From Candidatus Nitrosotenuis aquarius (lineage in GTDB: Archaea; Thermoproteota; Nitrososphaeria; Nitrososphaerales; Nitrosopumilaceae), in the NCBI RefSeq assembly GCF_002787055.1, contig NZ_CP024808.1, positions 1,142,328 through 1,206,327 on the forward strand: a stretch of 64,000 nucleotides of DNA, read 5' to 3'. The position numbers and the translations under genes were made by a program. Shown here one piece after another: positions 48,328-55,422 of this stretch; within the stretch, counting starts at the first letter, position 1; every line of letters starts with the position of its first letter. The notes under the pieces are model-generated. The model searched no databases, had not been told where the DNA came from, and saw nothing but the letters and a program-made list of their open reading frames with translations.

Positions 48328-49011
48328 TTGAAAAAAGCAGTCCTGGTTCTCAGTGGCGGACTGGACTCGTTATGTCTTGGGGCTCATCTGGCCAAAAAAT
48401 ATGACTTGTATGGAATCACGTTTTCATACGGACAAAGAGCATCAAAGGAGCTAGAGGCGGCAAAAAAAGTAGGAAAGACACTTCACCTCAAAGAACACAA
48501 AATAATTCCACTTGACTTTATGAAATCACTCTATGGGACAAGCAATGTACTTACCAGCTCCAAAAGGGCGCTCCCATCAAAATTTGAATATTCCATTGTG
48601 GTGCCAATCAGAAATGCAATTTTTGTAACAATTGCAACTGCGTGGGCTTTTTCACTCAAGGCATCCCTTGTCGCATATGGCGCCCACACAGACGATACAA
48701 AATACCCAGACTGCAGGCCTATATTTGCAAAAAAACTGGAATCTGCCCTAAATCAGGGAGAAATTGATGGAATCAATCTAGGAATTAGAAACAAAATTCA
48801 GATCTGGTCGCCGTATTCCACAGGCATATCAAAGAGCACGCTAATCAAGTCAGGCTATGAAAAATTTGGCGGCAAGATATTTCAGACGTGGAGTTGTTAT
48901 GCAAACGCAAAACATCATTGCGGAAAATGCGAGTCCTGCAATAACAGAAAGTCTGCATTTGTGCAGGCAAAAATTAAGGACAAGACAAAATATCTAGTAT
49001 CTGGTTTCTAG
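48328..49011 (+). CDS. queC: 7-cyano-7-deazaguanine synthase QueC
   Basis: A 227-residue PP-loop enzyme from TTG 48328 that makes preQ0 from CDG. The ATP loop LSGGLDSLC is at residues 8-16, followed by ITFSYGQRASKE. The zinc site is formed by CYANAKHHCGKCESC near 190-204. In archaea preQ0 is inserted in tRNA by TGT and becomes archaeosine. folE and queE lie just downstream on the other strand, while queD is not in the window. Confidence 0.96.
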   Translation: MKKAVLVLSGGLDSLCLGAHLAKKYDLYGITFSYGQRASKELEAAKKVGKTLHLKEHKIIPLDFMKSLYGTSNVLTSSKRALPSKFEYSIVVPIRNAIFVTIATAWAFSLKASLVAYGAHTDDTKYPDCRPIFAKKLESALNQGEIDGINLGIRNKIQIWSPYSTGISKSTLIKSGYEKFGGKIFQTWSCYANAKHHCGKCESCNNRKSAFVQAKIKDKTKYLVSGF

Positions 49012-49248
49012 GACTTTTTTGCGCAAAATTCCGTGTCGTATTCCCATGTACCAGCCAAGAACAATTGCCGCAATTATTCCAAAAAAGTACCAGTTTTGCA
49101 TTGCAGGAGCTGCATCTTTTGCTATAATATTTGTAAGCTCACGTGAACTCAGGGCTGCTATTGCCAGAACGACAAAGAACTCTATTGCAAGCCACGTAAA
49201 GTGAGGCCAAGATTCCCCTGGAACATGAACGTTGTTGTGTACTCCCAC
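48994..49248 (-). CDS. Small two-helix membrane protein
   Basis: An 84-residue protein with hydrophobic helices at about 20-36 and 53-68, an N-terminal HNNVHVPGESWPHFTW segment and a basic end (RHGILRKKV). Convergent with queC and overlapping it by 18 nt. No family recognised. Confidence 0.65.
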   Translation of the reverse strand: MGVHNNVHVPGESWPHFTWLAIEFFVVLAIAALSSRELTNIIAKDAAPAMQNWYFFGIIAAIVLGWYMGIRHGILRKKVLETRY

Positions 49249-49283
49249 AAAAAGCTAACCTCGCACTTGATTATTTATCTTTT

Positions 49284-49838
49284 TCAAAGAAGCGATGATT
49301 TAGAATTGCGAATTATGGCGACAACATCCTCGCGGTTTTCCTTTCTTTCATAGTATCCTCGATATGCAGCCGAAGTCATTGTTGCATCGTTTTTGACTCC
49401 TCTCATTTTCATGCAAAAATGTTCTGCATCGGATAATACCATTACTCCCTTTACTCCCTGAGCATATAGCTCATCTGCAATGTCTTTTGTCATGCGTTCC
49501 TGAATTTGGAGACGTTTTGCGTATTTTTCCACAAGCCTTACTAGCTTGGATACGCCAAAGACTCGGCCATTTGGAAGATACGCGATGCTGATTTTGCCAA
49601 AGAATGGAAGCATGTGATGCTCGCACATGGAATAGAACTTGATGTCTTTTACTACAACTGCGTCCGAGTCCTCTGAGAATTGGACAGATAGTTCCGAATC
49701 TGAATCATAGCCTGAAAAGATTTCCTCATACATGTCTGCAATTCTTTCTGGTGTTCCTCGTAGTCCTTCGCGTGTTGGATCTTCGCCTAATTCTATGATT
49801 AGCTCGCGGACTAGCTTGCGCACTCGTTCTTTGTTCAT
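49284..49838 (-). CDS. folE: GTP cyclohydrolase I
   Basis: A 184-residue FolE making dihydroneopterin triphosphate, first step toward preQ0 and archaeosine. The motifs MCEHHMLPFFGK, RLQIQERMTKDIAD and HFCMKMRGVK hold the zinc Cys/His ligands and catalytic histidine. Archaea often use the MptA/type IB enzyme instead; this is the classical type IA. Overlaps the end of queE by 4 nt. Confidence 0.95.
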   Translation of the reverse strand: MNKERVRKLVRELIIELGEDPTREGLRGTPERIADMYEEIFSGYDSDSELSVQFSEDSDAVVVKDIKFYSMCEHHMLPFFGKISIAYLPNGRVFGVSKLVRLVEKYAKRLQIQERMTKDIADELYAQGVKGVMVLSDAEHFCMKMRGVKNDATMTSAAYRGYYERKENREDVVAIIRNSKSSLL

Positions 49839-50548
49839 GGTGCACCTATCAGCTTGTGTAGTTGCGGTACGACACGTACGTCACTATAGTAAGAATAAAC
49901 TGCATCGTAAAAGCTCAAAAGTTTCTGCAATGTTGGTTCTGCTATTCCGTAGGTCGGTTGTATTATAAAACCCTTAAGATCCCTAGTGCCAACAGTTTTG
50001 AAAATTTTCTTCACTAAATCTGAAAATGTTTCCAGTTCTGTTTTTGATGAAACGACAATTTTGATGTATGTTGGTTTTTTTGCTACAACTGATTGTCTTA
50101 GGCAATCCAGTGCATTTTCTATGAGCGTAGAATAATGTTTTGCATCGACAAATTCCGAGTCTTTGGTTTTGAGCTCAATTTTGATGTAATCAATAAACGG
50201 CAGAACCTTGGCAAATTTTTTTGAATCAAAGCATGATGATTCCAGATATGTTGGGATTTTTTTTGACTGGATGAATTTTGCCATTTCTGAAACTGCCTCT
50301 GCCTGCACTAGTGGATCACCTCCTGTGAAATTGACCTTGTAGGTGTTTTCTGCGAGATTTTTTTCAATCAGTGCGCAGGCATCTGCAATTTCGTATTCTT
50401 GCCCAGAATCCATCGGAAGTGATTCCTTGGTATCGCAGTAAAAGCAGGTAAAGGGGCATCCTGCCAGCCTTACAAAGAGGGTTTTTGTTCCGTAAAGAAT
50501 TCCTTCTCCTTCAAGGGATGTGAATATCTCATAGAGCCTTACTTTCAA
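49835..50548 (-). CDS. queE: 7-carboxy-7-deazaguanine synthase QueE (radical SAM)
   Basis: A 237-residue radical SAM enzyme turning carboxy-tetrahydropterin into CDG. The cluster motif GCPFTCFYC (C-x3-C-x2-C) is at about residues 31-38, preceded by SLEGEGILYGTKTLFVRLAG and followed by NFTGGDPLVQ. With folE (overlapping) and the nearby queC it gives three of the four preQ0 steps. Confidence 0.94.
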   Translation of the reverse strand: MKVRLYEIFTSLEGEGILYGTKTLFVRLAGCPFTCFYCDTKESLPMDSGQEYEIADACALIEKNLAENTYKVNFTGGDPLVQAEAVSEMAKFIQSKKIPTYLESSCFDSKKFAKVLPFIDYIKIELKTKDSEFVDAKHYSTLIENALDCLRQSVVAKKPTYIKIVVSSKTELETFSDLVKKIFKTVGTRDLKGFIIQPTYGIAEPTLQKLLSFYDAVYSYYSDVRVVPQLHKLIGAP

Positions 50549-50584
50549 GTAGACGATCTAATTACAATCATTATTTAATTCAGA

Positions 50585-50779
50585 CTAGGTCAGAACAGGC
50601 TGCTTTGTATACATGAGGCCTGCCACAAAAAAGATAACGCCAAGAATTCCAATTAGGCCGCCGACAAACTCGATTGTCTCAATCCATTCTGCGTTTGTTG
50701 GTGCCCACAAAAATGCCATCAATGCGCCCACTATTATCATCGGTATGCCGACGCCAACAGAGATCTGCTTTGATGCCAT
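50585..50779 (-). CDS. Small two-helix membrane protein (64 aa)
   Basis: A 64-residue protein with two hydrophobic helices (GIPMIIVGALMAFLW and FVGGLIGILGVIFFVAGLM). It lies between queE and the exported coiled-coil gene. Function unknown. Confidence 0.6.
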   Translation of the reverse strand: MASKQISVGVGIPMIIVGALMAFLWAPTNAEWIETIEFVGGLIGILGVIFFVAGLMYTKQPVLT

Positions 50780-50817
50780 GCAAATTTGCTGTTCTTCAAA
50801 ATCTATATGAAGTTTTG

Positions 50818-52248
50818 TTAGGGTCTGTCAGAGTCTTCAGAATCTGCCGACTCGATGTGCTCTACAATCTCGTCAATTAACGCGTTGATTGCCCGGATTG
50901 TCTTTTTTGACTCTGCACCGGTCTCCTTGAGCTTAGCAAGCATTGATTTCGCAGAATCGAACTTTGGTTTGATGGAATCATCTATTTGTGGTTCTAGTTC
51001 AGCTAGCTTTGCCTCTAGCTTTGATATTTCGGCTGCGTTTCTTTGCGATTTTTGGTCCTTTGCCTTTTGTTTTTCTTGTTTTAGGGCCTTTTCTTGCTGC
51101 TTTGTGTCTGCTTTTAGCGCTTCAGGTTCTGATTTTGGCGTCTCTGATAACTGGAATGTTTCCTGTTTTGGTGTCTCTTTTGGCGCCTCTACTTGTTCTG
51201 ATGCACTTTGTTCTGATGCAGCACTTGTTGGCTGGGTTTGTGATAAAAAGTACGACTCGATTGATTTTATTGTAGAGTCTAGCGCCCTTAGTAGTTTTAT
51301 TGGATTCTCATTGGATGTTGGGTCTTTGAGTAATGCCAGAATTGATTTTGCTTCATCAAACTTGGGTCTGATGGTATCATCGATTTTTGGCTCTAATAGT
51401 AATAGTCTGCTTTCAAGCTTGGATATCTCTGAGATAATTTTTTGGTTCTTGGCGTCAAGCAGGTCCAAGTTGATTTGGTAGACTCGCTTTATTTTGATGA
51501 CGATTTGGGATGGATCGCCTCCACTTGATGCCAATTCTTCTTTTGCCTTTTGGAGTTTTGTAATTTGTTCCTCAGATAGGTTTAGCTCCTTGGCTTGTGC
51601 GAGAACTGCGTCAATTTTGGTTATGTACTTGTTTGCAAAAGAGACTGCCCTTGTGTTGGAGCGCTCTGTTACCATGTTTTTGATGGTTGCTTGGAGCTCA
51701 GTTCCGGTTGTCTTTAGTTCTACGAATGTTTTTTCAAGTGAGGCCATATCTCCATTTGCGAGATGTGTTTTGGCTGTCTGCAAAAGACTGTCGAATTTGG
51801 TAAAGTCAATTGGTAGATTATTTTTGTTGGCACTTGCTTTTAGTATGTTGATGTTTGACTCGAATCTTTTGAGTGCATTACTATAATCAAAATCAGCTAC
51901 TGGTGCTGCCATCTTTGATGCTGCTGGTTCAGGGGTTGGGATTGTTTCAGAGAATACTTGGGTTACTTGTCTGAATGCCTTCATTGCAGCCAAAAAGTGC
52001 TTTTTTGCATCTACGGCATCATCTGCCTTGACAGCTGCGATTAGTTGCTCAGTTTCTGAATCACCTTGCGCATACAATGCCTTGGCCTCTTCTGATACAG
52101 AAGGCATTCTGTCTAGCTGGATCTTTACTTGGTCTCTTGCCTTTGTTGCTAGATTTACAAACGAGTCTAGTTTGGAATCTGCAAATGCAGGTGCTGCAAT
52201 CATGCTAGCAACTAGGGCAAACAATGCAAGTGTCAGTACGGTTTTCAT
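50818..52248 (-). CDS. Exported helical/coiled-coil protein with an internal duplication
   Basis: A 476-residue protein with a signal peptide (LALFALVASMIAAPAFA, residues 6-22). The rest is nearly all helix and highly charged. A 37-residue segment with ISKLESRLLLLEPKIDD (about 283-300) recurs as ISKLEAKLAELEPQIDD (about 414-430), each followed by KPKFD-like text, with a Glu/Lys/Pro-rich linker between. It overlaps the upstream TM/winged-helix gene by 4 nt and so is likely its partner. No enzymatic motif. Function unknown. Confidence 0.8.
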   Translation of the reverse strand: MKTVLTLALFALVASMIAAPAFADSKLDSFVNLATKARDQVKIQLDRMPSVSEEAKALYAQGDSETEQLIAAVKADDAVDAKKHFLAAMKAFRQVTQVFSETIPTPEPAASKMAAPVADFDYSNALKRFESNINILKASANKNNLPIDFTKFDSLLQTAKTHLANGDMASLEKTFVELKTTGTELQATIKNMVTERSNTRAVSFANKYITKIDAVLAQAKELNLSEEQITKLQKAKEELASSGGDPSQIVIKIKRVYQINLDLLDAKNQKIISEISKLESRLLLLEPKIDDTIRPKFDEAKSILALLKDPTSNENPIKLLRALDSTIKSIESYFLSQTQPTSAASEQSASEQVEAPKETPKQETFQLSETPKSEPEALKADTKQQEKALKQEKQKAKDQKSQRNAAEISKLEAKLAELEPQIDDSIKPKFDSAKSMLAKLKETGAESKKTIRAINALIDEIVEHIESADSEDSDRP

Positions 52249-53471
52249 GCGGATTCCTCCTTTTTCTTTAGTCGAACCAAATTCTGAAAGTCTTTTTTCT
52301 CTATCTCTATAACACCTTGTCGTTCAAGTCGTTTTACTGCTCGCCACATTGTGGTTCTAGGTAAGAGGAATTTCTTTCGCAGGTCACGCTCAAAGGCTTG
52401 GCCTCCGTTTTTCTCCAAATACGCTACTAGCTGCTTGTCGTCTTCTCTCATTTCCTGGGTTACTAGCTCGTCTGAATCTACCTCTGGTTCTGGCTCTGAA
52501 TCCTCCTCGTCTTTGCTGAGCAGTGGTCCCATTGTCTTTTTGACTGCGCTCTTGGTCTTTTTGAGAAGAAGTGTAAGTACAGAGACTGCGCCGCCTATTG
52601 CCACAATCGAGGTTGCGATTCCTGCGATATTGTCTTTGAACCAGTCTACTGGGTTTGTTACCGAGTTTTGGCTGTTTTTCTCAAATTCGTCTATTTTTTG
52701 CTGTGCCAGTGCACTTGCTTCTAGCGCCAAATCCTCGGCATCGACGTATTTTTTGTTGTCATATGCAAAGATCGCCAGATCTAGCTTTTCTTGTGCTGAT
52801 GTTACATCAATGTTTTTAGTAGTAGCTTCTTCAAGAATTGATCTTACTTCGTTTATTGCGTTTAGTGCAGAAAGTGCTGGACCTGACGTGCTAAAGAAAT
52901 ACTCTATCTGGTTTTTGCCTTTGAGTAATGAGATGCGTTTTTCATCTATAGTGTCAATGCTGTCTGGATTTGCAATATCGACTACAGTTGCCTCGTCCGG
53001 CATTGTGATGGTATAGTCGATTGGAGAATCTATTGCAAATGTCCAGATCTTGCCCTTCTTTGAAACTAGGTCATAGCTGTCATATTCGATAGAAACGGAG
53101 GATGCGCCAAAGGTCTGGATTGTGGCGCCCTTGCTATCTATTTCAAACGATAACAGCAAGCCATCCTCGTCTTGGACTACGAAATTATCAATGGATTTGC
53201 CAAAAAGCGGGACCTTTAGTTCTGGTTCTGTTGGGTCGGCAGACGATTGTTGAGAAATATGAGTAGTGCCATCTGGGTAAATTGTAAAGTCAACGGCTCG
53301 AAGGGAACCAAAAGATTGCGTAGGCAGTACTACTGTAAGAAGAAGTCCTATTGCCAGTAGCGGTGCTTTTACCATTCTAATGAGGATATCTGTAATCCTT
53401 ACAAAAAGCATTCCTTCTAGATTAGGAACGATTTCCTCTTGGATACAGAGTACTGCCTCTTGGTTATTCAT
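52245..53471 (-). CDS. Transmembrane protein: outside domain, membrane helix, cytoplasmic winged helix
   Basis: A 408-residue protein. A leading helix (VKAPLLAIGLLLTVVLPTQSFG, near 34-55) looks like a signal or anchor. An outside beta-domain (60-190) and a helical part (195-265) follow. A membrane helix at about 277-300 (IAGIATSIVAIGGAVSVLTLL) precedes an acidic linker and a C-terminal winged helix (about 335-402; FERDLRKKFLLPRTTMWRAVKRLE), placed inside the cell. This is the form of a one-piece membrane transcription regulator. Start is uncertain; methionines at 21 and 33 are also possible. It follows a second winged-helix gene by 2 nt. Confidence 0.8.
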   Translation of the reverse strand: MNNQEAVLCIQEEIVPNLEGMLFVRITDILIRMVKAPLLAIGLLLTVVLPTQSFGSLRAVDFTIYPDGTTHISQQSSADPTEPELKVPLFGKSIDNFVVQDEDGLLLSFEIDSKGATIQTFGASSVSIEYDSYDLVSKKGKIWTFAIDSPIDYTITMPDEATVVDIANPDSIDTIDEKRISLLKGKNQIEYFFSTSGPALSALNAINEVRSILEEATTKNIDVTSAQEKLDLAIFAYDNKKYVDAEDLALEASALAQQKIDEFEKNSQNSVTNPVDWFKDNIAGIATSIVAIGGAVSVLTLLLKKTKSAVKKTMGPLLSKDEEDSEPEPEVDSDELVTQEMREDDKQLVAYLEKNGGQAFERDLRKKFLLPRTTMWRAVKRLERQGVIEIEKKDFQNLVRLKKKEESA

Positions 53472-53473
53472 GG

Positions 53474-53776
53474 TTAATACCTCAAATTCAGTGTGTCTAG
53501 GATGGACTGGAACTTGCGGAACTCTTGGACGAACTCGATGCCTTTTTCGGTGATTGTATATAGTCGGTTCTTGTCGGTTTTGACGGTTTGGACCAAGCCT
53601 GCGGTAGAGAGCTTTTCACACTTGTCAATTACGGCATAGTGCGAAAGGTTTGCTCTTCTAGATATTGCAGAGACAATAGTTCCTTGTCTGCCCCCTTCCA
53701 TGGTGACATTGAGGATATCTCCCATTATGCCCATTTCGGACCTGTATTGTTGTTTTGACATGGTATGGTAATACAC
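53474..53776 (-). CDS. Winged-helix DNA-binding protein (100 aa)
   Basis: A single winged helix with the pattern ISRRANLSHYAVIDKCEKLSTAGLV (recognition helix) and wing YTITEKGIEFVQEFR. It is like the archaeal ArnR/PadR-style regulators. As first gene of the unit with the TM regulator and exported coiled-coil protein, it probably regulates that unit or works with it. Methionine 5 is an alternative start. Confidence 0.85.
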   Translation of the reverse strand: MYYHTMSKQQYRSEMGIMGDILNVTMEGGRQGTIVSAISRRANLSHYAVIDKCEKLSTAGLVQTVKTDKNRLYTITEKGIEFVQEFRKFQSILDTLNLRY

Positions 53777-53945
53777 TGCAGTCTAGATTAGGGACATTTT
53801 GAAACCTCAAAGCGGAACGCACGGCGGAATGGGTGTTTCATGTGTCTGAAACGGCTGGAATTGGGCATTTTTTGATGCGGGGGAGCAAAAATGGGCCTCA
53901 AAAACCAGGGTTGGAAATTTTTGCCACTTGTGGGATTTTGTCTTA

Positions 53946-53969
53946 CTTTATCTTTATTAGGAATAAAAT
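53946..53969 (+). promoter_or_regulatory. Promoter of the coiled-coil gene
   Basis: CTTTATCTTTATTA (53946-53959) and AATAAAAT (53962-53969) are AT-rich TATA-like elements 27-50 nt before the ATG at 53996; they support that start over an earlier in-frame ATG at 53891. Confidence 0.45.
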
Positions 53970-53995
53970 GGCAACATTATCATAACCGATACAAA

Positions 53996-54469
53996 ATGTT
54001 TGAAAAATTTAAGAAGACGGAGGAATTTGAACAGGATACTGGTATGTTAGAGCAGGAAAAACCACGAGTTGAAGCGGAACGCACAGCGGAACAGGCTCCA
54101 TCTGGCTCTGAAATCGGCATTGCAGACCTGATGAACAAGCGCGCAAAGCTGGAAGAAGCCATTGATTATGTGGGATTAATGATAAAGAACCTAAAGGACA
54201 AGCGAACCAGGCTAGTCAAGGAAATAGAGGACGAATCCGTAGATATTCAGAATTTAAAGGATAAACTAGTCAAAGTTGGCGAATACATAGAAGAAGAGGG
54301 TCGCGGAATCCGGGATCTGTCCAACAAGCGTGCCCAGGTAGAAAAGCAGGCAGACGAGGTTGGCGCCCTAATAGGCAACCTACGAAGCAAACTTGCCAGC
54401 ATCGACAGCGTAGTCGAAGGCGAGGAAAACAAGGTCAAGTCCATCAAGGAATCTAGGCAAAAACTATAG
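53996..54469 (+). CDS. Coiled-coil protein, function unknown
   Basis: About 157 residues from the preferred ATG at 53996; an open frame reaches back to 53891 and would add a hydrophobic segment (LVGFCLTLSLLGI). The body is one long coiled coil with repeated patterns such as DLMNKRAKLEEAIDYVG, DLSNKRAQVEKQADEVG and LIGNLRSKLASID. No PRC barrel is present, so it is not CdvA. It converges on the second cdvB gene; a role in division is only suggested by place. Confidence 0.65.
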   Translation: MFEKFKKTEEFEQDTGMLEQEKPRVEAERTAEQAPSGSEIGIADLMNKRAKLEEAIDYVGLMIKNLKDKRTRLVKEIEDESVDIQNLKDKLVKVGEYIEEEGRGIRDLSNKRAQVEKQADEVGALIGNLRSKLASIDSVVEGEENKVKSIKESRQKL

Positions 54470-54638
54470 CCATTTCACAGCGGAACACAGTTGGAACGGG
54501 GTATTTTTGGCACAAATTGGTGTAAAAGTAGGCAAAATTGCAGGTTTATACCATAACTAGACAGAACTAGACAATTTTGGGATTGTAAACTATGCAGAAC
54601 TAGGCAGTTTTTGGAATAAAAGAAGGAAAAGAGATACT

Positions 54639-55280
54639 TTAGAGGTATCTTGTTGAGGTTGCTGTCTTGGAGCTTACTGGCGTAGATGGGAATCTGTCGC
54701 CCACGGACGCTTCGGCTACGGCTGCGGCTTCCTCTAGAATCCTTTCGGACTCTTCGTTTGTGCTTTGATCCATGCCAAACGCTCCCTCGCCTGAGAAGGA
54801 CTCCGCCATTAGTCCGTTTAGCATCTCGGTCATCATACCTAGTTCGTGGTCTGCCTCTGGCATGAACTTGCCCAGCGAAGACTTGAGGCTTCTCATTAGG
54901 CCGATTGTCGGTGCTATTGTGACTACGGTGTCTCCTAGGTCGTGGAATGTTGTTAGTCTTAGTTCGATTTGTTCTAGCGCCATTCTGCAGTTTCCTAGCA
55001 TCTTGGTGACCTTTCGGACTTCAGCTAGTTCGTTGGCTAAAACTTTGCTAGTGTGAGTATCGTGTTTTTGGGTTGCTTGGACTACTCTTTGGAATAGTTT
55101 TTCCTCCCTTTGCTTTAGTTTGGTCAGCATTCCGTCAAGTTTTGAGATTTGGTTCTGTAGGCTTCTTGTTGCCTGCTCAATTCTTGGCTTTAATGCGCCT
55201 TTAGGCTTGAGGACGTCGCCCAACTTTTCAGATACGCTTGGTGTTGTTGGTTTGGACCAGGAATTCTGGAAGTTTGTCAT
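54639..55280 (-). CDS. cdvB: CdvB-family ESCRT-III-like cell division protein (paralog 2)
   Basis: A 213-residue paralog of the protein at 28124-28774. The same N-terminal segment (KPKGALKPRIEQATRSLQNQ), ELAEVRKVTKMLG and SLKSSLGKFMPEAD are kept, and the C-terminal helix is ESERILEEAAAVAE. Thaumarchaeota usually hold several CdvB paralogs that assemble in turn at the division site. The tails differ most, as expected for partner choice. Confidence 0.92.
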   Translation of the reverse strand: MTNFQNSWSKPTTPSVSEKLGDVLKPKGALKPRIEQATRSLQNQISKLDGMLTKLKQREEKLFQRVVQATQKHDTHTSKVLANELAEVRKVTKMLGNCRMALEQIELRLTTFHDLGDTVVTIAPTIGLMRSLKSSLGKFMPEADHELGMMTEMLNGLMAESFSGEGAFGMDQSTNEESERILEEAAAVAEASVGDRFPSTPVSSKTATSTRYL

Positions 55281-55422
55281 GGCTGACTTTTAGTAGTTTA
55301 TTGAAATTGAAAGGTGTGAAATCTATTTTACCAAAAGATCTAATGGGTAACTTTTGAGGCTAATTCTGCCTCGTACAGCGTAGGCTAGGAGGCATTAGAA
55401 AATAAAAAACAATTCGCCTAGT

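Follow-up and report, generated by a model that had tools for sequence, protein, structure and literature searches.

The window analysed here is a stretch of 64,000 nucleotides from the 1.70 Mb genome of Candidatus Nitrosotenuis aquarius (G000:C1:1142328-1206327). Its minus strand carries three consecutive genes: gene 1 encodes P1 (P0001), a soluble winged-helix protein; gene 2 encodes P2 (P0002), a predicted membrane-anchored regulator; and gene 3 encodes P3, a predicted exported helical protein. The trio is a real, conserved unit and not a chance arrangement, because all three genes are adjacent in 74 of 79 loci from GTDB genomes and, of the 76 loci in which P2 and P3 could both be read, 71 show a gene overlap of exactly 4 nt. 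We propose, with evenly divided confidence, that this unit constitutes one autoregulated operon of a kinase-free envelope-sensing circuit. In this model cell-surface conditions would be read by the outside beta-saddle domain of P2, probably by contact with exported P3, and the signal would cross the membrane in a single helix and pass through a flexible linker to the DNA-bound winged helix. P1, alone or together with P2, would bind a private candidate operator located just upstream of the operon promoter, thereby setting the output of all three genes, and the level of P3 or the occupancy of P2 would feed back on their own synthesis.

Order and packing of the three genes

A sequence-only reading of the window had described three tightly packed genes, the first two lying 2 nt apart and the last two overlapping by 4 nt, and the open reading frames (ORFs) on the minus strand confirm this packing. 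The three ORFs are present where that reading placed them, except for the likely start of gene 1. Here the ORF itself stands, whereas the GTG at 53776 is probably not the start codon; the ATG at 53761 (MSKQQYRSEMG) is likelier because conservation sets in at MSKQQYRSEM in 16/16 aligned orthologues. Starting at 53776 would add five residues that are not conserved.

Conservation of the arrangement was tallied in two partly overlapping samples: the 79 loci, taken from the 80 relatives (of 189) most similar to P2, and a set of 61 genomes. Within the 79 loci, P1 adjoins P2 in 76 and P3 adjoins P2 in 76. The loci that are not intact comprise three at contig ends (L094, L121, L061) and one in which a frameshift splits P2 (L103, entered in the tally as P3 non-adjacent), leaving only L113 as truly devoid of P1 and P3. 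The gap between P1 and P2 is 2-4 nt in 76/76 loci. From the 61-genome set, the trio was contiguous in 28 of the 30 P2 loci fetched, the two exceptions (L022, L030) belonging to other families. The synteny check suggested with the sequence-only reading thus came out in favour of the unit, as the genes are not separated within the family (28/30 and 74/79 loci) and their order, strand and tight packing are kept throughout it. Relatives of P2 occur in 47 of the 61 genomes, those of P3 in 31 and those of P1, a large paralogous family, in 56. Across the Nitrosopumilaceae, P2 was found in 130 of 151 genomes (85 of the 96 of good quality).

Genes can also stay together in a slowly rearranging genome without any joint function, and the wider neighbourhood of the trio (queC, folE, queE, a divergent coiled-coil gene and a CdvB-like gene) is conserved as well: counts of loci with a nearby copy range from 66 to 69 out of 79 for queE, folE and the divergent gene. 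However, the distances to these neighbours shift by kilobases (approximately 2.3 to 5.6 kb between P2 and queE), while the trio keeps its 2-4 nt gaps and 4-nt overlap. Moreover, the P2-P3 pair persists among different neighbours in another family (L144). We consider a plain conserved neighbourhood to be a very improbable explanation.

A candidate operator upstream of P1

Alignment of the regions upstream of P1 revealed a block conserved across genera, with a core direct repeat, GTTCCGCT-N4-GTTCCGCT, flanked by TGAAAC and GTTTCA. The repeat was scored in 75 upstream sequences from 77 rows, window included (two were left out as a contig end truncates the upstream region). It is exact in 61 sequences; 10 others differ from it at one position, 2 at two, one (L074) at three and one (L071) at five. 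The core therefore lies within two mismatches in 73/75 sequences, and its start precedes the ATG by 69 nt in 52 loci and by 68 nt in 21. The commonest 8-N4-8 word upstream of P1 is common to 57/74 loci, compared with at most 26/66 for nine neighbouring genes.

The element is nearly exclusive to this position. Allowing at most one mismatch, the 61 genomes contain 41 core matches. The trio accounts for 39 of these and other sites, in G039 and G034, for two; a reversed control pattern gave five matches. Three of the 28 trio genomes of this set lack an intact core: it is cut in G007, lacks one 12-bp unit in G017 and is degenerate in G034, whereas the other 25 have it. In the window's own genome, up to three mismatches, there are 12 core matches versus eight for the reversed control; two lie at the locus (zero and two mismatches) and one other match with two mismatches lies elsewhere. 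The element was rejected, as far as is visible, as the mark of a regulon, and we infer that it is a private candidate operator of its own operon. This feature was absent from the sequence-only reading and is the most testable one of the locus.

Rather than an operator for P1 or P2, the element could be a binding site for some other, unrelated regulator or belong to an RNA leader, and the portions downstream of GTTTCA do resemble a promoter. A location almost confined to one operon in 61 genomes is nevertheless unlike that expected for the site of a global regulator. Regarding an RNA leader, a direct repeat does not pair with itself, and in an Rfam search of 50500-55400 nothing reached the gathering score; its two hits at E ~0.5, elsewhere in that stretch, were put down to chance. 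Both versions of this alternative appear improbable.

If the element is an operator, its assignment to P1 is the better supported half of the model because the element follows the presence of P1. No operator was found in the three P2 loci that lack P1 (L113, L143, L144). In the genus represented by G031 and G125, on which this comparison rests, the trio is present (G031) and P1 has drifted (the G031 protein is 53% identical to P0001, and that of G125 is 86% identical to that of G031); here the central repeat is changed, with TGAAAC and the downstream block still recognisable. P1 is also much more conserved than P2 or P3, with mean column identities of 73%, 41% and 36%, respectively, and 54 of 100 positions invariant in the alignment of 16 P1 orthologues. 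The same observations would suit a P1 that acts alone through the operator, as autorepressor or activator, with P2 binding elsewhere or acting without DNA and sharing only the transcript. Yet the winged helix of P2 is itself highly conserved (P371, T373, T374, W376, R377, R381, L382 and R384 are invariant in 21 orthologues) and no other conserved target is visible. It is for these reasons that we guess P2 may share the operator, and we regard action through P1 alone as somewhat unlikely.

Archaeal activators use the position just upstream of the promoter. The location of the candidate operator would suit an activator, and a repressor may also be possible. Further copies of the core lie upstream of the first and in the same orientation, with spacings of ~250-262 and 402-407 nt in related genomes.

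Predicted P2 architecture and a probable outside link to P3

The structural model of P2 contains an N-terminal helix (residues 21-47), an outside beta-saddle domain, a helical hairpin, a membrane-spanning helix and a winged helix, with a low-confidence linker between helix 274-307 and the winged helix. The hairpin (198-270) is gapped in 8/21 alignment rows (L021, L023-L029). Ahead of helix 1 the net charge is positive in 47/60 orthologues and beyond helix 2 in 57/60, and on the domain-facing side it is positive in 0/60 for each helix. This pattern fits a topology with the N-terminus inside, the domain outside and the C-terminus inside. Together, model and charge pattern agree with the earlier proposal that P2 joins an outside domain and one membrane helix to a cytoplasmic winged helix.

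Folding of the P2 C-terminus as a winged helix had been set as a test of that proposal. Residues 343-401 are confidently modelled as such and match MarR (3vod_A; Z 10.1, root-mean-square deviation (rmsd) 1.8, 65 aligned). Profile-profile comparison matched this domain to DUF7343 (probability 92.7, E 5.7e-8), and a DUF7343 match at E up to 0.1 was obtained for 46/60 P2 orthologues; as a single sequence P0002 scored 15.7 bits against this family, under the cut-off of 27.6, and all of its Pfam matches are under the curated cut-offs. Structural matches of the beta domain include ribophorin I (8pn9_E; Z 11.9, rmsd 2.7, 141 aligned) and the N-domain of an M1 aminopeptidase (1z1w; Z 11.1, rmsd 3.3, 133 aligned). 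Pentameric channels in the whole-model Foldseek list were discarded (rmsd ~15-20).

P3 begins with a predicted signal sequence (hydropathy peak 2.28 at residue 4, followed by an APAFA-DS junction). Its model is all-helical, with a mean predicted local distance difference test score (pLDDT) of 80.4 and a predicted template modelling score (pTM) of 0.39, and is predicted to form hairpins of antiparallel helices, the part at ~344-385 being of low confidence. Thus of the "exported coiled coil" first described, the exported helical protein is retained and the single long coiled coil is not. Fold matches of P3 (DnaK lid, SCIN, PsbQ and others; best Z 11.2) were discarded, being at the level expected of unrelated helical bundles, and homology between the P2 hairpin and P3 helices is not claimed (profile comparison probability < 1.5).

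Fusion of two proteins in one genome and their adjacency in another is a customary sign that they act jointly. Profile searches identified a P2-type outer domain and a P3-type domain fused in one protein in two genera (G018 and G019; E 1.4e-23 and 8e-16 with the P2 model, 2.4e-24 and 8.4e-20 with the P3 model). A CFI-box sits between the two parts (69.0 bits in L134 and 69.3 bits in L137, cut-off 40). In L135 (G009) the P2-type and P3-type parts are separate adjoining genes, and in L144 (G039), which belongs to another family, the gene after P2 encodes a P3-like exported protein (P3 model E 1.2e-16) and P1 is missing. Because the outer domains are fused in two genera and adjacent in G009, these results point to a working partnership between the outside parts of P2 and P3. 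The suggestion that P3 is a ligand or partner of P2 therefore gains support from adjacency and domain fusion, which is indirect in kind.

P3 could instead be a plain cell-surface structural protein, with P2 acting as a dosage regulator that makes no contact with it and the operon ensuring co-expression. Strong variation in the length and sequence of P3 (mean column identity of 22% over 50 orthologues) would be in keeping with such a role. That P3-type domains join P2-type outer domains in one protein in two genera, and lie beside them in a third, with no winged helix involved, suggests contact outside the cell, and we find the structural alternative possible but doubtful.

Two side observations concern these loci. 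A 297-aa protein in L136 (3222-4115, plus strand) combines a P2-type outer domain with a PEFG-CTERM-like tail (22.1 bits, cut-off 25); because of this tail, P2-type outer domains may also be used on surface proteins. In L135 (2103-4065), strongly Asp/Ser/Asn-rich repeats are common to two opposite-strand ORFs.

Several points weigh against an envelope-sensing circuit. The candidate operator has no other conserved targets, which is odd for a sensor expected to alter other genes. Adjacency alone is weak evidence because the wider neighbourhood (queC, folE, queE and the CdvB-like gene) is conserved too. The fused proteins contain no winged helix, and the P2-P3 partnership may for that reason be unrelated to transcription. 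Finally, joint confidence in the P3 model is low, and a P2 match is absent from 21/151 genomes of the family.

A fuller version of the envelope-sensing circuit can be sketched, which we hold to be unlikely as a whole. Membrane-tethered and soluble winged helices would act jointly on one private operator, of which some species have two further copies, as far as ~0.7 kb upstream, that would permit DNA looping; the exported helical protein would dock on the ribophorin-like outer domain to report the state of the envelope; and the circuit, special to ammonia-oxidising archaea, would have itself as its only conserved target.

Table 1. Features of the P1-P2-P3 locus and of related fused proteins. 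Positions refer to the window unless a locus is named.
Feature	Position	Strand	Basis
Candidate operator, TGAAAC - GTTCCGCT-N4-GTTCCGCT - GTTTCA	53799..53840	-	Upstream alignment; core 53811-53830, starts 69 nt before ATG
TCCCT-n-AT-n-A block past operator, possible promoter (TATA-like) region	53783..53793	-	Column conservation, 73 loci; promoter role inferred
Second exact operator core, 262 nt upstream of first, within divergent coiled-coil ORF	54073..54092	-	Pattern match
Third operator copy, degenerate, ~660 nt upstream of first, better kept in relatives	54471..54512	-	Third-best window score -1.9; next -8.8
P1, 95-aa soluble winged-helix protein, HTH_45 (PF14947)	53474..53761	-	PF14947 match, 16-orthologue alignment
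P2, 408-aa predicted membrane-anchored regulator (N-terminal helix, outside domain, membrane helix, linker, winged helix)	52245..53471	-	Alignment, model, charge pattern
P2 residues 57-193, predicted outside beta-saddle domain	52893..53303	-	pLDDT ~90; structure matches
P2 residues 198-270, predicted outside helical hairpin	52662..52880	-	pLDDT ~95
P2 residues 274-307, predicted membrane-spanning helix	52551..52652	-	Hydropathy peak 2.26 at residue 285
P2 residues 343-401, predicted cytoplasmic winged helix, MarR/DUF7343-like	52269..52445	-	Model pLDDT ~88; structure and profile matches
P3, 476-aa exported helical protein with N-terminal signal sequence (predicted)	50818..52248	-	Hydropathy, APAFA-DS junction, model
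L134 fused protein, 885 aa: P2-type outer domain, CFI-box, hydrophobic stretches, P3-type helical domain	L134 3331-5988	+	Profile matches
L137 fused protein, 971 aa, same parts as L134 fusion	L137 1884-4799	-	Profile matches

Neighbouring genes and relation to known systems

Beside the trio, the window contains a CdvB/ESCRT-III-like gene (54639-55280, minus strand; Snf7 26.1 bits, cut-off 27.3), a homologue of which lies near the trio in 59/79 loci. The divergent coiled-coil protein is encoded at 53999-54469 (plus strand) and has a relative near the trio in 69/79 loci, ~1 to 5 kb away. On the other side, queC, a gene for GTP cyclohydrolase I and a queE-like radical SAM gene (48328-50548) complete the conserved neighbourhood.

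Little is known of how the abundant ammonia-oxidising archaea perceive their environment. For their family, the trio supplies a near-universal candidate sensor together with its predicted partner outside the cell, and a DNA element whose position and sequence are defined; the latter suits in-vitro work that does not require genetics in organisms that are hard to grow.

Regulators of the ToxR type have an N-terminal OmpR-type winged helix, followed by a transmembrane segment and a periplasmic domain. In contrast, the winged helix of P2 is C-terminal and MarR/DUF7343-like, with matches to MarR_2, HTH_24 and DUF7343 and no OmpR-type model among the matching families shown. The system further differs from ToxR-ToxS in its predicted beta-saddle outside domain, in a partner that is seemingly exported and soluble, and in a second, soluble winged helix that leads the operon.

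Kinase-free signalling from outside to DNA, as the sequence-only reading had it, fits the predicted topology, fold, operon and operator, whereas its view that the form lacks precedent does not hold, since transmembrane transcription regulators (TTRs) are a described, widespread class. According to excerpts of a survey of these proteins, 1,384 archaeal TTRs were counted, with 404 archaeal species mined, and several TTRs have an associated protein, including ToxR-ToxS and TcpP-TcpH (PMC10269533, Table 1). Two features of the class, a transmembrane region and a DNA-binding domain in one protein, are both predicted in P2, which would also have to control transcription from the membrane. As in ToxR-ToxS and TcpP-TcpH, to the extent that these excerpts describe them, P2 would unite a DNA-binding domain and a membrane helix in one protein and have a neighbouring partner.

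An archaeal precedent is offered by ArnR and ArnR1 of Sulfolobus, which are, like P2, archaeal membrane-bound one-component regulators, as described in excerpts of PMC6396743. The helix-turn-helix of ArnR, unlike that of P2, is in the N-terminal region (PMC13286277, in excerpt), and ArnR is without an associated protein in the available portion of the TTR table (PMC10269533). ArnR and ArnR1 also differ from the trio in being phosphorylated by ArnC and acting on pili and archaellum promoters. In predicted layout P2 resembles archaeal DUF7345-TM-DUF7343 proteins, which combine an outside domain, a membrane helix and a C-terminal winged helix that is probably related to that of P2. The outer domain of P2 is, however, unrelated to DUF7345 by sequence profile (probability 0.5), and DUF7345 had no matches in the window's genome or in seven other family genomes searched; judged on sequence alone, identity of the two domains is unsupported.

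P1 resembles Sso10a/HTH_45 proteins in passing the PF14947 cut-off (40.6 bits, cut-off 25.5) and differs from Sso10a in scoring below the cut-off of that family (NF053610; 35.6 versus 60 bits) and in sitting in a regulator operon. The outside domain of P2 is predicted to share its beta-saddle fold with ribophorin I/Ost1 and the M1 aminopeptidase N-domain. A profile search against PDB sequences (A5 profile) gave no match to ribophorin I or M1 aminopeptidases up to E 10, and, unlike for those proteins, no peptidase or oligosaccharyltransferase context was seen for P2.

No description of the trio or its operator was found in the excerpts of open PMC literature searched, subscription papers lying outside that scope. 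Taken together, these comparisons indicate that the class, a transmembrane transcription regulator with a neighbouring partner as in ToxR-ToxS, is already known. What is new is the combination of a C-terminal winged helix, a predicted beta-saddle sensor, a predicted exported partner, a leading soluble winged helix and a private candidate operator. If the envelope-sensing circuit is as proposed, ToxR-ToxS logic would be extended to archaea with a different anatomy.

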